A program made the translations under genes and the position numbers. Below, piece after piece: positions 4,583-37,271 of a stretch of 64,000 nt of DNA. The notes under the pieces were generated by a model. The model was not told where the DNA came from and searched no databases. It saw nothing but the letters and a program-made list of their open reading frames with translations. Source of the DNA: Nostoc sp. PCC 7107 (GTDB lineage Bacteria; Cyanobacteriota; Cyanobacteriia; Cyanobacteriales; Nostocaceae). The DNA lies in the NCBI RefSeq assembly GCF_000316625.1, contig NC_019676.1, forward strand, positions 1,351,001-1,415,000. Reading direction: 5' to 3'. How positions within the stretch are numbered: position 1 is the first letter of the stretch; each line of letters begins with the position of its first letter.

Positions 4583-7171
4583 ATGACAACCTCACAGGAG
4601 AGGATTATCCCCACAGATCTCCGGAACGAAATGTCCCGGTCTTATCTGGAATACGCCATGAGTGTGATAGTGGGTCGGGCGCTACCAGATGCCAGGGATG
4701 GTCTGAAACCTGTGCATCGCCGTATCCTCTACGCTATGCACGAACTAGGTTTACTGCACGATCGCCCATTTAGAAAGTGCGCCCGTGTGGTTGGGGAAGT
4801 GTTGGGTAAATATCACCCCCACGGCGACACAGCAGTATACGATGCCTTGGTGCGGATGGCGCAGGATTTTTCCATGCGATCGCCATTAATTAACGGACAT
4901 GGTAACTTTGGTTCTGTAGATAACGATCCCCCGGCAGCAATGCGATACACAGAATGTCGCTTGCAAGCTTTAACTAGCGCCGCTTTACTCCAAGACATCG
5001 AATCAGAAACTGTAGACTTTGCGGATAACTTCGACGGTTCCCAACAAGAACCCACAGTTTTACCCTCGCGTATCCCCCAACTCCTATTAAATGGTTCATC
5101 GGGAATTGCTGTGGGGATGGCGACGAACATTCCGCCCCACAACTTAGGCGAACTGATTGACGGATTAGTAGCCCTAATTCACAATCCCGAAATCACCGAC
5201 CTCCAGTTGATGCAGTACATCCACGGGCCAGATTTCCCCACTGGGGCGCAAATTCTCGGCACGGCGGCAATTAAAGAAGCATATACCACGGGGCGCGGTT
5301 CCATTACCATGCGTGGTGTCGCCAACATAGAAACCATCGAACAGCGTGGTCGTCCCGAACGGGAAGCAATTATCATCACCGAATTGCCTTATCAAACCAA
5401 TAAGGCCGCATTAATTGAGAAAATAGCCGAATTAGTCAACGACAAGCGGATTGAAGGGATTGCAGATATCCGGGATGAAAGCGATCGCGACGGGATGCGA
5501 ATTGTCATCGAACTCAAGCGCGATGCTTATCCCCGCGTGGTGTTGAACAACCTTTACAAGCAAACCCCACTGCAAGCCAACTTTGGGGCAAATATGCTGG
5601 CGTTGGTCAACGGGGAACCACAAATCCTCACCCTGAAGCAATTTTTAGAAGTCTTCCTCGATTTTCGCATCATCTCCATTACCAGACGTACCCAGTACGA
5701 ACTGCGAAAAGCGGAAGAACGCGACCATCTTTTGCAAGGATTATTGATTGCTTTATCCCATTTAGATACAATCATTAATTTAATTCGTCATGCCCCGGAC
5801 GCGCCCACAGCTAAAGGCGAGTTAATCACAAGCTACGGACTCTCCGAAGTCCAAGCCGACGCGATTTTGCAAATGCAACTGCGGCGCTTGACTGCCTTAG
5901 AAGCAGATAAAATTCGGCTAGAACATGAAGAATTACAAGAACGGATCGGCGATTTGCGAGATATTCTGGCACGGCGAGAAAGAATTTTAGAAATTATTGA
6001 AGCTGAAATTTCGCACATCAAAACCAGCTTTGCCACACCCCGACGCACAATTATTACCCACGCCGAAGGTGAAATCGATGAACGTGACCTGATTGCTAAC
6101 GAAAAAGCAATTATTCTATTAACACAGCAAGGTTACATCAAACGGATGCCCGTCAACACCTTTGAGGCGCAAAGCCGCGCCACTAGAGGGAAGGCCGCCG
6201 CGAAGGTCAAAGATGATGACACAGTAGAACATTTCTTAACTTGTTGCGATCACGATAGTGTTTTATTCTTTAGCGATCGCGGCGTAGTCTACTGCCTCAA
6301 AGCCTATCAAATTCCCGTGGGTTCCCGCACCAGTCGGGGTACACCCATTGTCCAGATGCTACCCATTCCCAAGGAAGAAAAAATCACCTCCATTGTCCCC
6401 GTTGACGAGTTCAGCGACGATGAATATTTAGTCATGCTGACCAAAGGCGGCAATATTAAGAAAACTGCCTTGGCAGCTTTTAGCCATATTCGGGCGAATG
6501 GTTTGATTGCCATTTCCTTAGAAGAAGGGGATCAACTGCGCTGGGTACGCCGCGCTAGAGTTGAAGACAGCATCATCGTTGGTTCTCGTCTGGGGATGGC
6601 AATACACTTTAGATGTACCCACGAACAACTGCGGCCTCTCGGTAGGGCGACGCGGGGTGTCAAATCGATGAAACTCAAAAAGGGTGATGAACTCGTGGGG
6701 ATGGATATTATTCCCGCCGCTATTTTAGAAACACTCGACACGGGAACAGAAGAGTCAGAAATCGAAGAAATCGAAACCGAAGATATCGAAAATGCGGAAG
6801 AAACCACAGAAGTAGAAGTAACCGGGAATGTTGGCCCTTGGGTGCTAGTAATTACAATGGGCGGTTACGGTAAACGCGTACCCGTAGCCCAATTCCGTTT
6901 GCAAAACCGTGCCGGACAAGGTTTAATGGCTACCAAATTCAAAAACCGCAAAACCAAAGACAAATTAGCAACCTTGCAAATTGTCAACAGCGACGATGAA
7001 ATCATGATGGTGACAAATCGCGGTATCATTATCCGTCAGGCTACCAATGCAATTTCCATTCAATCGCGATCGGCTACTGGCGTAAGAGTTCAACGCTTAG
7101 ACGAAGATGACGCAATTACCGGAGTTGCGATCGTTCCGCCTGATACTGGTGATGAAGAAGAAACAGAATGA
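4583..7171 (+). CDS. gyrA: DNA gyrase subunit A (type IIA topoisomerase A subunit)
   Basis: 862 residues, the normal GyrA length. The breakage-reunion domain has the catalytic tyrosine in AAMRYTE (Tyr122) and the quinolone-region sequence [13 protein letters not shown] (Thr83, Asp87 in E. coli numbering). The C-terminal half is a six-bladed DNA-wrapping domain. Where E. coli has the GyrA box QRRGGKG, this protein reads [13 protein letters not shown], a degenerate box. An acidic Glu/Thr-rich insertion (about residues 716-752) separates two blades. Start ATG 4583 gives [13 protein letters not shown]. The stop overlaps lnt (ATGA), implying translational coupling. It could be a ParC-like paralogue, but length and blades favour GyrA. 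Confidence 0.92.
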
Positions 7172-8826
7172 AGGCAAAGGTAAAAAGTAAAAAGGCAAAA
7201 GAAAGAGGCGATAATTCATTTTTAACTTTTGCCTTTTACCTTTTGCTTTCTCTAATTAGTGGGGTTTTGATGGGGCTAACCGTCGCCCCTGTGGGTGCGT
7301 GGTTTCTGGCTTGGATAGCCTTAGCCCCGCTTTGGGTATTAGTTGTTAAACAAAGTAACTCTTGTTTAGAAGGTAAAAAGTCAAAACCATTTTTTTTACC
7401 TTTTACCTCCTTCGGATTTCGCCAGTCGCTCATGGGGGAAACCCCCAAGACCGCGCTGGCTCACTTTTACCTTTTACCTTTATTTTGGGGTGTTGGTTAT
7501 CACAGCGTCGCCCTTTTTTGGATTACTGGGATTCACCCAATGGATTGGTTGGGTGTACCTTGGTGGCCGAGTTTAGCTATTGCTATATTTTGTTGGGGCT
7601 TTATTAGCCTATGGGGTGGGTTATTTGTCACCCTTTGGGCGGCGGGAATGGTATGGCTGAATCAAGGAAAACCTTGGTTGCGAGTTTTAATTGGTACAGC
7701 CCTGTGGTGCGGTTTAGAAAGTTTGTGGAGTTCCGGTTCTTTGTGGTGGAGTGCTTTAGCGTATACGCAATCACCGCATAACTTAGTAATTTTACATCTT
7801 GGGCAACTATCTGGCCCTAATACTGTAACAGCGGCGATCGCCGCCTTCAATGGACTAATCGCCGAAGCTTACCTATCTTCTACACCTCGGCGGTTCGTCA
7901 ATAAATATTTAGCATTAGCCACAGGCCTATTCATCACCTTACATCTAATCGGCTGGTTTTTATATAGCCAACCCATCGCCCAACCAGCAGCAGCCGCCTT
8001 AAAAATTGGCGTTGTGCAAGGTAACATCCCCAACAAAATCAAAGTCAAACCCGAAGGTTATCGCCGTGCCATTACAGGCTACACCAGTGGTTATTTAACT
8101 TTAGCCGAACAAGGTGTAAATGCTGTCCTCACACCCGAAGGCGCGTTACCAATTTTTCAGCGCAATTTTGGAGACACACCCCTATTTGCAGCAGTACAGC
8201 AAAAAGGTGTAGTCGTTTGGGTTGGTGCTTTTGGGGAAAAGGGACGCAGTTATACAAACAGTTTGTTTACCGTTAATAGCCAGGGTGAAACTACCAGCCG
8301 CTACGATAAATCCAAACTCGTACCCTTGGGTGAATATATCCCCTTTGAGGAAATTTTAGGTAAATTAATCAGCCGCTTGTCACCATTGGATGAACACCAA
8401 GTTCATGGTGCAGCCAACCAAATATTTGATACACCTTTTGGGCAAGCAATTGTTGGTATTTGCTACGAATCGGCATTTCCTGAAGTATTTCGCCGTCAAG
8501 CTGCGGCGGGTGGGCAATTTATCCTTAGTTCTTCTAACGATGCCCATTACAGTGCAGCTATGCCATTCCAGCATCATGCTCAGGATATCATGCGAGCGAT
8601 TGAAACTGATAGGTGGTCAGCACGGGCTACTAATACGGGATATTCAGCTTTTGTCGACCCCCACGGCAAAACTTTGTGGATATCTGGCTATAATACCTAC
8701 GAAACTCACGCAGAGACTATATATCGCCGTCAAACGCAGACTTTATATGTGCATTGGGGTGATTGGTTGACACCTTTGTTGTTGGGTTTGGGTGTTGTTG
8801 GTTGGTTTGTGGGGAAAGTATTTTAA
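7168..8826 (+). CDS. lnt: Apolipoprotein N-acyltransferase
   Basis: 552 residues. Lnt N-acylates the N-terminal cysteine of lipoproteins in the inner membrane. An N-terminal multi-helix membrane region is followed from about residue 280 by a nitrilase/CN-hydrolase domain: LTPEGALP (catalytic Glu), [14 protein letters not shown] (catalytic Lys) and [10 protein letters not shown] (catalytic Cys), then a last membrane helix. The ATG overlaps the gyrA stop. Two segments of the N-terminal region (codons around 7173-7245 and 7372-7481) are repeat-derived DNA read in frame: one forms part of the first helix, the other adds a loop with LMGETP. Whether the true start lies further in is uncertain. Confidence 0.9.
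7173..7245. repeat. Imperfect palindrome of Nostoc intergenic type inside the lnt start
   Basis: Left arm 7173-7201 (GGTAAAAAG...AAGGCAAAAG type) and right arm 7223-7245 (CTTTTGCCTTTTACC...) are complementary with a few mismatches. Similar A/T-run palindromes lie in intergenic DNA of this window (62256-62334). Here both arms are translated as the first 26 residues of lnt. Confidence 0.6.
7372..7481. repeat. Dispersed repeat inserted in frame in lnt
   Basis: A/T-run arms (GGTAAAAAG and CTTTTACCTTTTACC) flank a core at 7428-7446, GCTCATGGGGGAAACCCCC, with a perfect GGGGG/CCCCC hairpin. The same 19 bases recur at 13574-13592 between ktrB and ktrA. About 36 codons of lnt come from this segment without breaking the frame. 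Confidence 0.75.
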
Positions 8827-8967
8827 ACGCAGAGGGATGCAGAGTCCGCGCAGAGTTCCGCAAAGGAATAGGGGTTGAGAGAATTAGGAGGAAATGGAAG
8901 CAACAGTACAACAATCAAAAAAGCATTGTGTTTGCAGCATAACGCCTTTTAATTTTACTGGTCACTG

Positions 8968-10158
8968 TTAAACAGGTTTATCTGTTAACTCTGGTTGAGA
9001 TTTATTCGCTTGCAATTGCACCCAAGCAAAGAAGGGAATTGCGAGTAATTGAGTTGCAGTCGAAAATACTACTAATAAGGTGATGGAGCGATCATACAAA
9101 ACACCCATTAAAGTACTGCCTAAAAACCACGCTAAACCATAGCCAGTACTAAAGATACCATAAGCTGTGGCGCGTTTGTGTTTGGGGACGAGTCCGGCGA
9201 TCGCAGCTTTTAAAATTGACTCTTGCGCCCCCATCCCAATACCCCACAATGCTATACCTAACAGTGCTAATTGGGTATTGCCTAAAAATACCAATGGTGC
9301 GAAAAAGGAGGAAATAAACGCCGCAACCATCAAAATCGAAATACCTACGCGGTCAAATAAATAGCCAAATATCAGTGCAGCTACGGCATCAACGCCCATT
9401 GCCAAGGCATAAAATAAAGGAATTGTTTGACCGGAAGCAATATTTCCTTTTTGGAAATGAAAAGCAATTAAGGGAAAATCTGCATAACCAGCCGCAATAA
9501 TCGCCACTGCACCCAGATAAATCCAAAAAGTTCGCGGTATTCCGTCTTCTTGATTAATCTCAGTTTCAATTTCTAAATCGCTGGGGTTGGGATACAAAAA
9601 TTGCAAAACCAATAACACAATCAATCCCAACACCGCAGGTACAATCAAAATTGTGAAGGCATTGCGATACTCTCCTTGGAAATAAATCATTGCTGCTACC
9701 GCTAAAGGCCCCATCACAGCACCGGTTTGATCCATTGCTTCATGCAAACCAAAGCCAAAACCTCTACCAATTTGACTCACACCATGAGACAAGAGTGCAT
9801 CTCGCGGGGGAGTCCGCACGGCTTTACCTGTGCGTTCTGCCATCATCAAACCTGCGGCTACTTCCCATCTCCCAGCAAAGGCTAGTAATGGTACAACGGC
9901 AGTGTTCAAAATAAATCCTAACGTTGTAATACCCCAATACTTGCGAGTCTGGTCGCTGAGATAACCAATAGCTAGGCGCAAACCATAACCAATGAGTTCT
10001 CCAAACCCCGCTACCAAGCCTACCACAGTACCGCTTGCTCCCAAAACCTGTAAATAAGCCCCCGTAATACTACGCGCCCCTTCATAAGTGGCATCAGCAC
10101 AGAGACTAACAAAACCAAGTAAAATCACAAACTTCAAGGCGGCTGATTTCTGTGCCAT
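8968..10158 (-). CDS. MFS-type transporter
   Basis: About 396 residues and roughly twelve hydrophobic helices, a Major Facilitator Superfamily permease of the inner membrane. The loop after helix 2 reads GYLSDQTRKYWG (MFS signature type) and a later loop has ERTGKAVRTPPRDALL. I chose ATG 10158 (MAQKSAALKF). An upstream TTG would only add six residues. Substrate unknown. It is divergent from psb32 across a 313-bp gap in which I see no clear promoter. Confidence 0.85.
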   Translation of the reverse strand: MAQKSAALKFVILLGFVSLCADATYEGARSITGAYLQVLGASGTVVGLVAGFGELIGYGLRLAIGYLSDQTRKYWGITTLGFILNTAVVPLLAFAGRWEVAAGLMMAERTGKAVRTPPRDALLSHGVSQIGRGFGFGLHEAMDQTGAVMGPLAVAAMIYFQGEYRNAFTILIVPAVLGLIVLLVLQFLYPNPSDLEIETEINQEDGIPRTFWIYLGAVAIIAAGYADFPLIAFHFQKGNIASGQTIPLFYALAMGVDAVAALIFGYLFDRVGISILMVAAFISSFFAPLVFLGNTQLALLGIALWGIGMGAQESILKAAIAGLVPKHKRATAYGIFSTGYGLAWFLGSTLMGVLYDRSITLLVVFSTATQLLAIPFFAWVQLQANKSQPELTDKPV

Positions 10159-30876: not shown

Positions 30877-31129
30877 GTTTTGATATTCTCACCGGAGATT
30901 TTCTGATTTCGTCCTAGGAATCTCTGTGGTATGAGAACATTTTGAGAAACCACTTTAAATTCATGGTGATCGCAATTTTTTCTCCATCCAATGAATAATA
31001 AATGAATAATTTAATATTTATTTAATTACGCCAATTCATAAAAACATATAATCTGATTATTAGTTTTTTTCACTAAAATTACTGTTTTATTCCTATTTCA
31101 TTTAGTATTTATCTCATTTAATAATTAAT

Positions 31130-31972
31130 ATGAATAATTTTTCACCAATAGAAAGATTTATAAACCGAGGATTTTTTGATAGAGAAGATCCGCAAGAATT
31201 AAGAGGTTATTATTTAGGAAATTTTAGTATTTCTCTAAATCAAACTGTTGCTTTAGATGATCAACATAAACTTATTAATATTAGACAAGATTTATATGAA
31301 GAAATATGTCGAAGATTAAATGAATTTAAAAATACTGACGCTTATCTTGCAGATAAATTATATTTTAAAATGGTTAGATATACGGATTATAAATATCAAG
31401 GTTCTGATAGAGATAGACTATATATAGAAATTGTATTAGACACTTTAAGAGGCACAAAAATTTCCACTATATGTAGATTTTTTATTCATGGAAATAACTT
31501 GTATATTGCGGCTGATTCTTATGCTTTAGGAAAGCTAAACATCTGCGGTCTGATAATTCAAACTATTTTTTTATTCATATTACTAACATCCTTACCTGCT
31601 CTCTTAGCTCTGTTTATTATTCCTGGAATTATTGCTGGATTATACTTATATTCTACCTGGATTAAGTTCATTAGAGCTTTGTTTCAAAGGGAATCATTTG
31701 TGTATGCACTCAGAATAAACTTTCCTAGACCACTCAGGAGCAATTTTTTTGATTTAGATGATTGTTTTATGTTCTTAAAAAGCATACTTCCCATGATTAT
31801 TGAATCTTTAAGGAAAGTACTAGAACAACATGAGTTGCTCGATAAAACTATGGAACAATATTTAAATGAAATCAGTAAGAATATTAGCGGACAAACAATT
31901 AATGTTAACACAGGTGGTGGAAATATTATTGGTGCAATATTAGGAGGTGGAAACAATACAGTTAATAATTAG
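31130..31972 (+). CDS. Unknown membrane protein with C-terminal Gly/Asn motif
   Basis: 280 residues, AT-rich gene. Residues 1-135 are soluble and unrecognised (ELRGYYLGNFSISLNQTVAL, FKMVRYTDYKYQGSDRDRLYIEIVLDT). Two strong membrane helices lie at about 138-178 (LIIQTIFLFILLTSLPALLALFIIPGIIAGLYLY). A helical segment follows and the protein ends INVNTGGGNIIGAILGGGNN plus four residues. The same motif begins the next gene's protein, 41 bp downstream. Probably a two-gene system. Family unknown. Confidence 0.7.
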   Translation: MNNFSPIERFINRGFFDREDPQELRGYYLGNFSISLNQTVALDDQHKLINIRQDLYEEICRRLNEFKNTDAYLADKLYFKMVRYTDYKYQGSDRDRLYIEIVLDTLRGTKISTICRFFIHGNNLYIAADSYALGKLNICGLIIQTIFLFILLTSLPALLALFIIPGIIAGLYLYSTWIKFIRALFQRESFVYALRINFPRPLRSNFFDLDDCFMFLKSILPMIIESLRKVLEQHELLDKTMEQYLNEISKNISGQTINVNTGGGNIIGAILGGGNNTVNN

Positions 31973-32013
31973 TGGTAAGTACAACATAAGGTTAATAACT
32001 GAGGCTCAATTTT

Positions 32014-32394
32014 ATGGAATCTAAGATAATTGTAAATACTGGTGGTGGTTCTTTTGAAGGGAACAATGTAGGCGGAGAGGGCAATATAATTAATAACTAT
32101 AAATCTATACGTCAAAATGAACAAACCCTAGCAGAAGCCGCCGCCGAGATTCAAAAGTTACTTGAACAGCTAGAAAAGTCATATCCTGCTACAACTACAG
32201 TCGGAAAGATGGCGATCGCTACTGAAACCATTAGCCAAATTGATAGCAACCCAACTTTAGCTGCAAGAATACTCAGTGCATTACAAGCAGGTGGCATCTC
32301 AGCTTTCGAGCAACTACTGAATCACCCCGCAGCTAGTTTTTTCATTAGTGCTTTGGGAGATTGGCAATCAACTAAGAGACAAATTTCATCATAA
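32014..32394 (+). CDS. Gly/Asn-motif plus helical adaptor-like domain protein
   Basis: 126 residues. Begins MESKIIVNTGGGSFEGNNVG, which aligns with the C-terminus of the upstream membrane protein (13 identities in 24 positions). Then a helical domain, TLAEAAAEIQKLLEQLEKSY...AARILSALQAGGISAFEQLL...HPAASFFISAL. This helical pattern is common in Nostocales, often next to glycine/asparagine motifs and in conflict-type proteins, but I know no proven function. Soluble. Confidence 0.7.
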   Translation: MESKIIVNTGGGSFEGNNVGGEGNIINNYKSIRQNEQTLAEAAAEIQKLLEQLEKSYPATTTVGKMAIATETISQIDSNPTLAARILSALQAGGISAFEQLLNHPAASFFISALGDWQSTKRQISS

Positions 32395-32477
32395 CTGTTC
32401 CAAAATAATACACCTCAATCTATGGAATTAGAGAGGTAGATCATTAGGGAAAGATATTGCATTGCAACGTCTCTACA

Positions 32478-32591
32478 AATATTATTGGCAGGTATTACAA
32501 TGTCTACGAAAATCAAAGGATCTACATCAAATATGTCCTGACTCACGCAGACTATGATAAGGATAAATGGAAAAATGACCCGTACTTTTAA
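32478..32591 (+). pseudogene. 5'-truncated HigB-type toxin
   Basis: The frame ending at the TAA 32589-32591 reads YENQRIYIKYVLTHADYDKD then KWKNDPYF, the C-terminal third of HigB-family (HigB_toxin) mRNA interferases. Upstream it runs into a dispersed repeat half (GCAACGTCTCTACA) and a stop at 32445. No start or N-terminal part is present. Confidence 0.7.
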
Positions 32592-32985
32592 TCCTGAATC
32601 CTACGGTAAATTACTAGCTCAGTATCAACCAAAAACAATTACTACAGAAGAAGAAAACGAAAAAGCAATAGCTCTTGTCCAAGACTTAGAACATCGTGCC
32701 AATCGTATACCAGAAGAAGAAATACTATTGGAACTGTTAGTGACATTAATTGAGAAATTTGAAGAAACCCATTATCCAATCCCTCAAGGTACACCACATT
32801 CGATGTTAGTCCATCTAATGGACGCACGTGATATTTCTCCAGAAGTATTAGCTGAGACAGTTGGATCATTGGAGGTTGTGCAGGAAATCTTAAATGGCGA
32901 TCGCACGATTAATCAAGCAGAGGCAGAAGCGCTTGCTGAGTATTTTCATGTAAGTGCAAATTTATTTTTGACAACGAAAGGTTAA
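32575..32985 (+). CDS. HigA-type antitoxin/regulator, toxin partner truncated
   Basis: 136 residues from ATG 32575 (MTRTFNPESYG), which overlaps the end of the higB relic as in intact higBA pairs. An ATG at 32554 gives seven extra residues. C-terminal helix-turn-helix (DISPEVLAETVGSLEVVQEILNGDRTINQAEAEALAEYF) as in the COG5499 HigA group. The gene is intact though its toxin is not. Confidence 0.8.
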   Translation: MTRTFNPESYGKLLAQYQPKTITTEEENEKAIALVQDLEHRANRIPEEEILLELLVTLIEKFEETHYPIPQGTPHSMLVHLMDARDISPEVLAETVGSLEVVQEILNGDRTINQAEAEALAEYFHVSANLFLTTKG

Positions 32986-34489: not shown

Positions 34490-34716
34490 AACTGCGTACA
34501 GCAGAACGCATGAAAAAGGGATAATAAAAGGAGCATGGTGTTCTACAGAGTTCGTTCGTTCTTGGTGCGTAAAAGCCTGTTAAATAGCCAGAACCAGATA
34601 CCCGCAAGAACCGGTAACTGTTGCGCCTGTTAAAGAGGAAAGCACGTAAGTCAGATTATGACTCATGGGTATCAACAGGACACTGTGCCTTGTCGCCAAG
34701 ATCAGGTGAGGTAGTT
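34490..34716 (+). other. Non-coding 5' region of the IS110-type element (possible bridge-RNA locus)
   Basis: 227 bp with no open frame before the transposase relic. IS110-family elements are known to carry a structured guide (bridge) RNA in a long non-coding end, and the 5' position fits the IS110 group. Self-complementary stretches are visible (GAACTGCG.../CAGAACGC...; AACAGGACACTG...). Element end not determined. Confidence 0.3.
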
Positions 34717-35555
34717 ATGGAAATAGTATATTCCCGTTGTGCAGGTCTGGATGTCCATAAAAAGACAGTAGTGGCTTGTGCAATCACACCCAAATCGAGT
34801 GGTGGTTGTCACAAAGAAATTCAAACATTTGGAACAATGACCAGGGATTGACTACATTTGTCAGATTGGTTGATGGCAAGGGAATGTACTCACGTAGCGA
34901 TGGAAAGCACGGGAGAGTATTGGCGGCCAGTATTTAATATCTTGGAGGCAAATTTTCAAGTATTACTGGTGAATGCTCACCACATCAAAAACGTACCTGG
35001 ACGGAAAACTGATACCAAGGATGCTCAATAGATTGGAGAATTACTGATGCACGGACTGTTGCGTGCTAGTTTTATTCCACCGATAGAGCAAAAGGATTTG
35101 CGTGACTTGATTCGCCATCGGACAAATTTCATTCGTGAGCGAGCAACGTTAGTCAATCGAGTCCAAAAGGTGTTAGAAGGGGCGAATATCAAACTAGCGG
35201 CAGTGGTATCAGATGTCATGGGAGTATCAGCAAGAATGATACTGGATGCTATTGTCAAGGGAGAAACTAACCCACAACTGATGGCTGAACTGGCATCCAA
35301 GCGTTTAAAAGACAAACGCGAGCAACTCATACAAGCCCTGGATGGAAAAGTGCGATAATCGCTGTTGCACATTCGATTTGAAAAATCGCCTACTACTTAA
35401 TTTTGCGTCAGGAGACTTATCAAGATTTAGGAGGTGATTATTTCGATAAACAAAAGCCAGAGGCGACAAAAAACGTTTAGTTAAACGTTTGCAAAAACTA
35501 GGATATGAAGTTTCACTGACTCAGCTAGAAACTGCGTCGCCAACGCTTGCCTGAT
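34717..35555 (+). pseudogene. Degenerate IS110-family transposase
   Basis: From ATG 34717: SRCAGLDVHKKTVVACAI (the DEDD-type first Asp), then an in-frame TGA at 34849 (expected Leu), MESTGEYWRPVFNILE, AHHIKNVPGRKTDTKDAQ, a TAG at 35029 (expected Trp), IGELLMHGLLRASFIPP..., and the frame ends at 35358. About 35400-35555 the C-terminal end (LRQETYQDLGGDYFDKQKPE...) returns in other frames, so the middle, including the catalytic Ser domain, is deleted. Inactive. Confidence 0.8.
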
Positions 35556-35999: not shown

Positions 36000-37271
36000 C
36001 TGAAGGGGTGACAAAGCGGCTGAAGCCAAGAAAATAGAGGAGCGTGACCGTTTTGGGGTAAAAAAAGATAGGTCAGGTATTCTCAACAAGACCTATCAAA
36101 TGATAATGTTACCTAAATTCTACCAAAACTGCTTTCAAAATGTACTGACACCCGCACAGTACAAGATGCTAGAAATCTTACTAATGCTATTGCAATTTCA
36201 TAAAACTGTGACAATTGAGAAACTAGCAACAGTATTTCCACAACCGATAAAATTTGAAAGTCGGAGGCGGAGTATACAAAGATTTTTACTACTACCTCAG
36301 TTGTCGATTCCATATCTGTGGTTTCCCCTGCTCAAACGATGGGTGAAAAATAGTCTGAAAAGAGGAGAGAAACGGCTAATATTTGCGATTGATAGAACAC
36401 AATGGCGTTCACAAAATGTATTTGTAATTAGTTTAATAGAACAAAAAAGAGCAATACCTGTGTACTGGCTATTGTTACCTAAAAAAGGATGTAGCAATTT
36501 GGGAGAGCAGAAAAAATTAATTCGTCCACTATTGCAGTTATTTAAGGGATATCAAATGCTGGTACTGGGAGATAGAGAATTCCACAGTATAAAACTAGCA
36601 AATTGGTTACATAGCAAGGGCATTGACTTTGTATTGCGTCAGAAACAAGGTACTTATATTCGGCAAGAAAACCAATCACACCAACGCTTACAATCTTTGG
36701 GATTAACTCCTGGCATCTCGTTTTTTTTGACAGGGATTCAAGCAACTAAACAGAAAGGGTTTGCCAATTTTAATCTCGCCGGATATTACAAGCGCAAATA
36801 TCGTGGAGTTGTTGAGCCTGCTGGCTGGTTTTTATTAACTAACCTTGATAGTCTCAAAGATGCCATTAAAGCATTTAAGTTGCGGAGTGGTATCGAAGCC
36901 ATGTTTAAAGATTGTAAAACTGGAGGGTATAATCTCGAATCTACTTATGCTGATGGTCAACGTTTGATAGCACTGATTTTATTAATTGCTATTGCCTATA
37001 CTTGTGCTATTTTAGTTGGTCGTAATTCTCGCTCCTCTGGACTACAAAAATATGTTGGTCGTCTGAAGGAGTTACAACGATTGCACCGCCGACATAGTGC
37101 TTTTTGGATTGGTTTGTATGGTCAGTTATGGGTAGGGGCAATGGAATTTTGGGCTGATTTAGCTCATGAATTGATGCGCCTCAAGCCCAGTAAACTGCCA
37201 TATTTTCAACAAGGTCTACGGGCTATGACTCTTATCCAGTCTGCTTTATAACTTTTTTGTCACCCCTTCAG
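36000..37271 (+). mobile_element. Intact IS4-family insertion sequence
   Basis: 1272 bp. Perfect 16-bp inverted repeats CTGAAGGGGTGACAAA (36000-36015) and complement (37256-37271). A 9-bp target duplication CTCAATTGC on both sides (35991-35999 and 37272-37280), typical of IS10-like members. One complete transposase gene inside. Perfect duplications imply a recent insertion. Confidence 0.95.
36100..37251 (+). CDS. IS4-family transposase
   Basis: 383 residues. DDE triad: Asp in LIFAIDRTQWRS, Asp in MLVLGDREFHS and Glu in the LRSGIEAMFKDCK version of the YREK motif. Full length, no internal stop. It ends five bases before the right inverted repeat. Confidence 0.93.
   Translation: MIMLPKFYQNCFQNVLTPAQYKMLEILLMLLQFHKTVTIEKLATVFPQPIKFESRRRSIQRFLLLPQLSIPYLWFPLLKRWVKNSLKRGEKRLIFAIDRTQWRSQNVFVISLIEQKRAIPVYWLLLPKKGCSNLGEQKKLIRPLLQLFKGYQMLVLGDREFHSIKLANWLHSKGIDFVLRQKQGTYIRQENQSHQRLQSLGLTPGISFFLTGIQATKQKGFANFNLAGYYKRKYRGVVEPAGWFLLTNLDSLKDAIKAFKLRSGIEAMFKDCKTGGYNLESTYADGQRLIALILLIAIAYTCAILVGRNSRSSGLQKYVGRLKELQRLHRRHSAFWIGLYGQLWVGAMEFWADLAHELMRLKPSKLPYFQQGLRAMTLIQSAL

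Follow-up and report, generated by a model that had tools for sequence, protein, structure and literature searches.

A two-gene cassette in Nostoc sp. PCC 7107 encodes a membrane protein and a soluble partner with a shared Gly/Asn-rich motif, suggesting an NLR-free cognate signalling pair

Our analysis of a 64,000-nucleotide stretch of the Nostoc sp. PCC 7107 genome (the window; GCF_000316625.1, contig NC_019676.1, positions 1,351,001 to 1,415,000) revealed a recently acquired two-gene cassette whose products, a membrane protein (gene 1) and a small soluble protein (gene 2), share a 24-residue motif, at the C-terminus of the former and the N-terminus of the latter. The motif is unique to the cassette within its genome, it is matched within loci in other genomes, and the modules that stand behind it are swapped from locus to locus. 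Our preferred explanation, to which we attach a probability of roughly 0.6, is that the two products form a cognate pair, held together by a homotypic motif that adopts beta structure, and that this pair works in the manner of the NLR/BELL bacterial amyloid signalling sequences (BASS), free of an NLR. The features of the cassette are as follows.

31130 to 31972, plus strand: gene 1, a 280-residue membrane protein with an alpha/beta domain, a transmembrane hairpin, two helices and the C-terminal motif (open reading frame; AlphaFold2 model).
31130 to 31534, plus strand: N-terminal alpha/beta domain of gene 1, residues 1-135 (AlphaFold2 model).
31541 to 31684, plus strand: predicted transmembrane hairpin of gene 1, residues 138-185 (model helices 138-161 and 163-185; Kyte-Doolittle peak 2.8).
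31898 to 31969, plus strand: C-terminal 24-residue motif of gene 1, INVNTGGGNIIGAILGGGNNTVNN, residues 257-280 (profile match, E 1.5e-7; disordered in the model).
32014 to 32394, plus strand: gene 2, a 126-residue soluble partner with the N-terminal motif and a four-helix domain (open reading frame; AlphaFold2 model).
32026 to 32097, plus strand: N-terminal 24-residue motif of gene 2, IIVNTGGGSFEGNNVGGEGNIINN, residues 5-28 (profile match, E 3.5e-7; matches the gene 1 tail).
32128 to 32388, plus strand: four-helix domain of gene 2, residues 39-125, widespread in cyanobacteria (AlphaFold2 model; homologue searches).

Gene 2 lies on the same strand as gene 1, 41 bp away. A first-pass annotation, made from the letters of the window, had reported two reading frames whose products align without gaps over 24 Gly/Asn-rich residues with 13 identities, and both the frames and the alignment of INVNTGGGNIIGAILGGGNNTVNN with IIVNTGGGSFEGNNVGGEGNIINN were recovered here. 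The local score of the gene 1 tail against the gene 2 head was 64; none of 2,000 composition-preserving shuffles scored above 47. The likeness points to constraint at the protein level rather than to a recent duplication of DNA, because the same codon is used at four of the 13 identical residues and 44 of the 72 nucleotides agree between the two copies. The concern that the motif might occur at random in unrelated genes was not borne out in this genome, as a 24-column motif profile run at E≤10 against the 6.33 Mb single-contig assembly returned two sites only, the gene 1 tail and the gene 2 head.

Gene 1 is rare, being present in seven of 391 genomes of the order and four of 218 genomes of the family, with its own genome included in both counts and one of the four being a weak partial match. 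The search profiles left out the tail, except in the first scans with the whole protein, and the ten loci compared here are that of the window and nine found by protein-core or whole-protein searches, all with a readable tail. The nine were found in Dendronalium phyllosphericum CENA369, Brasilonema bromeliae SPC951 and Microcystis aeruginosa LEGE 91341, on plasmid pP742405 of Gloeothece citriformis PCC 7424 and a plasmid of Phormidium yuhuli AB48, and in three genomes designated G543 (two loci), G777 and G588. All ten loci (10/10) have a nearby small gene with a head that matches the locus's own tail. This partner lies directly downstream in eight of the ten (15-57 bp), in agreement with the expectation that the two genes should be neighbours in other genomes; in Gloeothece one gene stands between gene 1 and the partner, and in Phormidium the partner is divergent and ~0.8 kb off. 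The tail and head of the pair are, respectively, SINIDTGGGGIIGSVISGLNNTINN and SISVQTGGGTVVGSAIGGMNNTIDN in Gloeothece, INQTFTGSVGSVAAKVHGNVTNIN and ITMNFTGSVSGVAGEVHGNQININ in Phormidium, NFTGPVGGVTGTGVVKV and TFHAPVGGVTGTGDVNV in Dendronalium, NFTGSVGGVTATGSV and NFYGPVGGVTAKGDV in Microcystis, and ISLNNSGIMSNVLIGNNNFQ and ITVDNSGVITNSVFGNNNIQ in Brasilonema. No relative of gene 1 was found in the viral contigs that were searched.

All-against-all match scores were computed between the final 34 residues of gene 1 and the first 60 residues of the partner. The sum over the true pairs was 635, compared to a re-paired mean of 358.5 (sd 52.9) and a re-paired maximum of 616, and none of 200,000 re-pairings reached 635. 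Composition shuffles never reached the score of the pair in eight of the ten pairs, and did so in 1 and 3 of 2,000 shuffles in the other two. The tails form four classes, and the heads track the tails, not the domain behind the head. The partners in the window, Gloeothece, Phormidium and G588 have one helical domain in common and motifs of two classes. The partners in Dendronalium/Microcystis, Brasilonema, one of the G543 loci (G543b) and G777 have other helical regions, and that of the second G543 locus (G543a) has a transmembrane segment in place of the helical region, yet each matches its own gene 1. In these five other kinds of partner, the matching motif thus stands ahead of other domains. 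To judge from these sequences, the tail/head match is not explained by what follows the head, the specificity of pairing lies mainly between motif classes, and cognate pairing is well supported. A wider test of 23 pairs contained 13 non-gene-1 pairs that had been picked for a high within-locus match, and its permutation result was not used; the re-pairing and shuffle scores, the codon comparison and the rankings of stand-alone copies given below serve as the fair tests.

Several observations were made at and around these loci. The gene 1 relative of Gloeothece (L022, 16-3381) is fused to an N-terminal FHA domain and is divergent from a protein kinase gene, and the extra gene between it and its matching partner encodes a 218-residue transmembrane protein, of which a decayed locus (L029) keeps a shortened gene copy. 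On the Phormidium plasmid (L026), the gene 2 relative is adjoined by a reading frame (7890-9008) whose product starts with a Gly-rich stretch, matches TRADD-like_N weakly and contains pentapeptide repeats, and another motif-bearing reading frame lies at 4928-5290. Three weak matches from the first gene 1 search (L005, L006 and L007) were rejected as chance, with no gene 1 reading frame present there.

The AlphaFold2 model of gene 1, built on an alignment of eight sequences, had a mean confidence (pLDDT) of 77 and a predicted template modelling score (pTM) of 0.76. Hydropathy placed a hydrophobic hairpin at approximately residues 136-178, and the model placed further helices at 190-253 and a disordered tail, which is the motif, at 258-280; the two membrane helices that had been proposed ahead of the C-terminal motif are found in the model at 138-161 and 163-185. 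The hairpin would put both ends of the protein on one side of the membrane, and this side is suggested to be the cytosol because the basic stretch KFIRALFQR follows the hairpin. A fold search against the PDB returned no significant match for gene 1, the top matches being weak (cyanobacterial PsbP, E 0.067; DcrB, E 0.21). A TRADD-N identity for the alpha/beta domain was considered and found no support, the domain having no Pfam match and a fold search result that is only weakly PsbP/DcrB-like. In the model of gene 2, residues 1-35, with the motif inside, are disordered and four helices lie within 39-125, which upholds the description of a motif at the N-terminus before a helical domain; the same PDB search gave no match for the four-helix domain. 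Scans of both proteins against Pfam, NCBIfam and PADLOC returned nothing above the family cut-off, in keeping with the earlier remark that neither belongs to a recognized family. Gene 1 has a GC content of 28.4 %, with a GC value at third codon positions of 17.8, compared to ~42-44 % for the flanking genes, and gene 2 has 40.2 %; the earlier description of the genes as AT-rich thus holds for gene 1 but not for gene 2.

The partner is no one-off, as the four-helix domain of gene 2 is a widespread cyanobacterial module. Among 80 genomes sampled from the family, 45 had it, and it was found on 32 plasmids, either in stand-alone proteins of ~120 residues or as part of larger proteins, and it is usually preceded by a Gly/Asn-rich stretch. 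Fusions to EAD1, TPR-Macro-CHAT and LRR-Roc-COR were also seen. One such chain of 1532 residues (L084, 767-5365) consists of the motif, the four-helix domain, TPR repeats, Macro and a CHAT protease-like domain, and a bacterial LRR-Roc-COR (ROCO) protein (L086, 6231-9473) has a C-terminal Gly-rich stretch and the four-helix domain.

For stand-alone copies of the module, we looked elsewhere in the locus for the sequence that best resembled the Gly/Asn-rich stretch. Among the 16 copies of a first set, ten had their own locus in first place of 20 and three had it in second place. In an enlarged set of 24, which had not been selected for motif match, a neighbour <1 kb away gave the own locus a rank of 1-3 among 40 in 15 cases. 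Stand-alone relatives with helical domains 65-76 % identical had motif scores of 27-32 against the gene 1 tail, compared to 57-130 against their own neighbours. The matching neighbours included NACHT proteins with an N-terminal motif (L076 and L077), TPR proteins, one NACHT-HEAT, one pentapeptide and one GUN4 protein, and, with a C-terminal motif, two DUF6232 membrane proteins (L074 and L091). These fusions and neighbours place the four-helix module among predicted bacterial immune and cell-death proteins and tie it to the network predicted for multicellular bacteria (PMC8195603) and to NLR-linked signalling.

Comparison with a genome of the same genus (G136), which aligns at 92 % and 95 % on either side of the cassette, revealed the recent acquisition: the counterpart of window positions 30885-32512 is only 290 bp long in G136 and contains the greater part of a higB gene.

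30885 to 32512, no strand assigned: 1,628-bp segment with both genes, absent from G136 (G136 alignment on both sides).
32513 to 32579, plus strand: 3' remnant of the replaced higB toxin gene (...RIYIKYVLTHADYDKDKW) (translation; G136 counterpart PF09907).

The higB gene of G136 (HigB_toxin, PF09907, E 2.7e-20), which has an in-frame stop near its end, lies upstream of the same higA. The window retains the 3' end of higB and an intact HigA-like antitoxin gene (32554-32985), and this antitoxin looks orphaned because only the 3' end of higB precedes it. Decay was seen at three loci with a broken gene 1 (G762, G777 C290 and G543 C135), two of which have an intact gene 2, and the matching partner was kept in nine of nine loci with an intact gene 1. 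This pattern, in small numbers, is a weak hint that would fit gene 1 as the harmful partner. A chimeric remnant (L030, 1649-1885) joins the start of gene 1 to the end of gene 2, a deletion through the cassette.

Under the reading that we prefer, the alpha/beta domain of gene 1 would lie in the cytosol and its hairpin in the membrane, the helices that follow would return its unstructured 24-residue tail to the cytosol, and gene 2 would be soluble, with an unstructured head, the same motif, ahead of the four-helix domain. A signal would concentrate or release the head of gene 2, possibly through self-association of the four-helix domain or through another contact, and the head would serve as the template on which the tail of gene 1 joins it in one cross-beta stack. 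The membrane protein would be clustered in this way and may act as an executioner or an anchor at the membrane, as in the HET-S, HELLP and BELL systems, and parallel circuits would stay separate, each locus or motif class having a private match of its own. Within this model we infer the physical binding, its amyloid or cross-beta nature, the direction of signalling, the executing partner and a cell-death or defence role, and it is position, composition and company that suggest the beta contact and the role in signalling or conflict. The first-pass proposal of homotypic docking between a membrane-bound and a soluble part is strengthened by the within-locus match of tails and heads, and its beta-type contact stays the conjectural part.

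Several of our results weigh against this reading. No candidate trigger emerged: neither an NLR nor another NTPase was found in the two genes, the Pfam scan of gene 2 included, and the profile detected neither a further copy of the motif nor a motif-bearing sensor elsewhere in the 6.33 Mb genome. The re-pairing statistic of 0 in 200,000 ignores kinship, and the ten loci amount to only about four independent motif classes. Specificity within a class is barely there, the window tail scoring 88 with the Gloeothece head compared to 64 with its own, and the G777 and G588 pairs are weak, with a score of 38 each. For approximately nine of the 24 stand-alone relatives of gene 2, no neighbour gave a clear match. 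Both motifs were left disordered by AlphaFold2, an outcome that speaks neither for nor against amyloid. Lastly, an assignment of roles in which gene 1 is the sensor and the four-helix protein the actor is of nearly equal plausibility.

Developed into a full alternative, this reversal would make the membrane protein a sensor or anchor and the four-helix protein a constant adaptor or executioner that is recruited via the motif. The four-helix domain is constant and its partners are varied and sensor-like (NACHT, TPR, HEAT, pentapeptide, GUN4 and DUF6232), and the fusion of the Gloeothece gene 1 to FHA, adjoining a protein kinase gene, suggests a phospho-signal input at gene 1. However, gene 1 proteins are as constant as the helical domain, since their partners are of at least five unrelated kinds, a gene 2 profile found gene 2 alone in its own complete genome (next best E 0.49), leaving no second helical-domain protein to recruit, and the helical domain has neither a transmembrane segment nor an enzyme signature; we give this alternative a fairly low probability. 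We are more doubtful of a toxin–antitoxin-like pair, in which gene 1 would be toxic and gene 2 would neutralize it by capping the tail with a mimic of the motif. The cassette resembles such a system in that its two genes form a closed unit, the motif being absent from every other protein of the genome, in its plasmid occurrence, in having replaced most of higB in a toxin–antitoxin locus and in the decay of gene 1 beside an intact gene 2 in two of three damaged loci, but neither protein matches a known type II toxin or antitoxin family in Pfam, NCBIfam or PADLOC, and the occurrence of the helical domain in large signalling proteins (CHAT, Roc-COR and EAD1) and beside NACHT genes is better suited to signalling.

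An ordinary, non-amyloid beta clasp that holds together a constitutive membrane complex, with no immune or cell-death role, would be consistent with models that show no beta structure in the motif, with an amyloid nature that is a matter of inference and with the lack of a PADLOC defence family match for either protein. It would sit poorly, however, with the patchy spread (7/391 genomes of the order), the plasmids, the recent insertion and the turnover of motifs between loci, all typical of conflict systems and not of housekeeping complexes, and we rate it as improbable as the toxin–antitoxin account. A chance or low-complexity resemblance between Gly/Asn-rich termini is hardly credible: G and N do abound in the motif, but every re-pairing was exceeded, all composition shuffles were exceeded in eight of ten pairs, the motif is unique in the genome, and the codon comparison and the ranking of stand-alone copies also contradict it.

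The closest known systems are BASS1-10, the bacterial amyloid signalling sequences of NLR/BELL pairs (Dyrka et al. 2020; PMC7889193, PMC8086366), and in HET-S, HELLP and BASS/BELL the motif of the effector is converted to amyloid on the template of the receptor's motif (PMC7889193). Common to BASS/BELL and the window pair are a motif of ~20-25 residues in adjacent gene products and its position, C-terminal on the membrane-side protein and N-terminal on the partner (ten loci); both systems also have many unrelated motif families, and BASS are known from cyanobacteria. Unlike BASS/BELL, the partner in the window is a 126-residue four-helix protein without an NTPase and not an NLR (NACHT/NB-ARC), although gene 2 relatives adjoin NACHT genes with matching motifs, and unlike BELL, a small all-helical bundle with a transmembrane helix, gene 1 is modelled as a beta-rich alpha/beta domain with a transmembrane hairpin. 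As two defining features fail, in a comparison made with BASS by description, we regard the pair as a variant of BASS-like signalling and not as a member.

The two-gene layout with cognate motifs that template an effector is shared with the fungal HET-S/NWD2, HELLP/PNT1 and PUASM pairs (PMC7889193, PMC9815663), which differ in their fungal NLR receptors and HeLo/HELL or PNP_UDP effectors. The Pfam amyloid-motif families (RHIM, HET-s, Ses_B and NACHT_sigma) gave no match at E≤1, such short profiles being insensitive. In the EAD and TRADD-N networks of multicellular bacteria, small adaptor domains are exchanged between effectors and sensors and are proposed to act homotypically (Kaur et al. 2021, PMC8195603). 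As with EADs, the small helical domain studied here is exchanged among effector and sensor proteins, in fusions to EAD1, CHAT-TPR-Macro, LRR-Roc-COR, GUN4 and pentapeptide proteins, and the Phormidium neighbour with a weak TRADD-like match recalls the TRADD-N networks; unlike EADs, gene 2 matches no Pfam EAD model and the pairing lies in a short variable motif, not in a folded domain. The literature covered, with subscription papers, supplements and the original BASS paper outside it, did not describe the motif-plus-four-helix module or the membrane family, and priority is not certain.

A broader interpretation, possible and held tentatively, is that of a large plug-and-socket system in cyanobacteria, with interchangeable parts that would be wired into private, prion-like circuits by beta motifs that are short and change fast. 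The parts would be membrane, four-helix adaptor, NACHT, TPR, HEAT, GUN4 and pentapeptide proteins, each locus would have its own key, an NLR would be an optional input and the window pair would represent the minimal NLR-free circuit. If the motif pairs as proposed, bacterial amyloid-type signalling would be wider than NLR/BELL pairs and would include minimal two-protein circuits, the many orthogonal motif pairs would provide cross-seeding sets for the question of prion specificity, and a probable wiring role would be given to a very common four-helix domain and to a membrane family, both without a curated name.

Two minor observations concern the surroundings of these genes. The four-helix domain was not found in the phage records searched; on a viral-collection contig (IMGVR_UViG_3300022536_000055; L112, 2843-4333) it ends a 496-residue protein with multiple transmembrane segments, the neighbours of which, named by eye, are a vWA-like protein and a gene resembling a phage terminase. 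Downstream of the cassette, the window holds transposase-like reading frames at 34621-35358 and 36100-37251, also named by eye, some of which are apparently broken.
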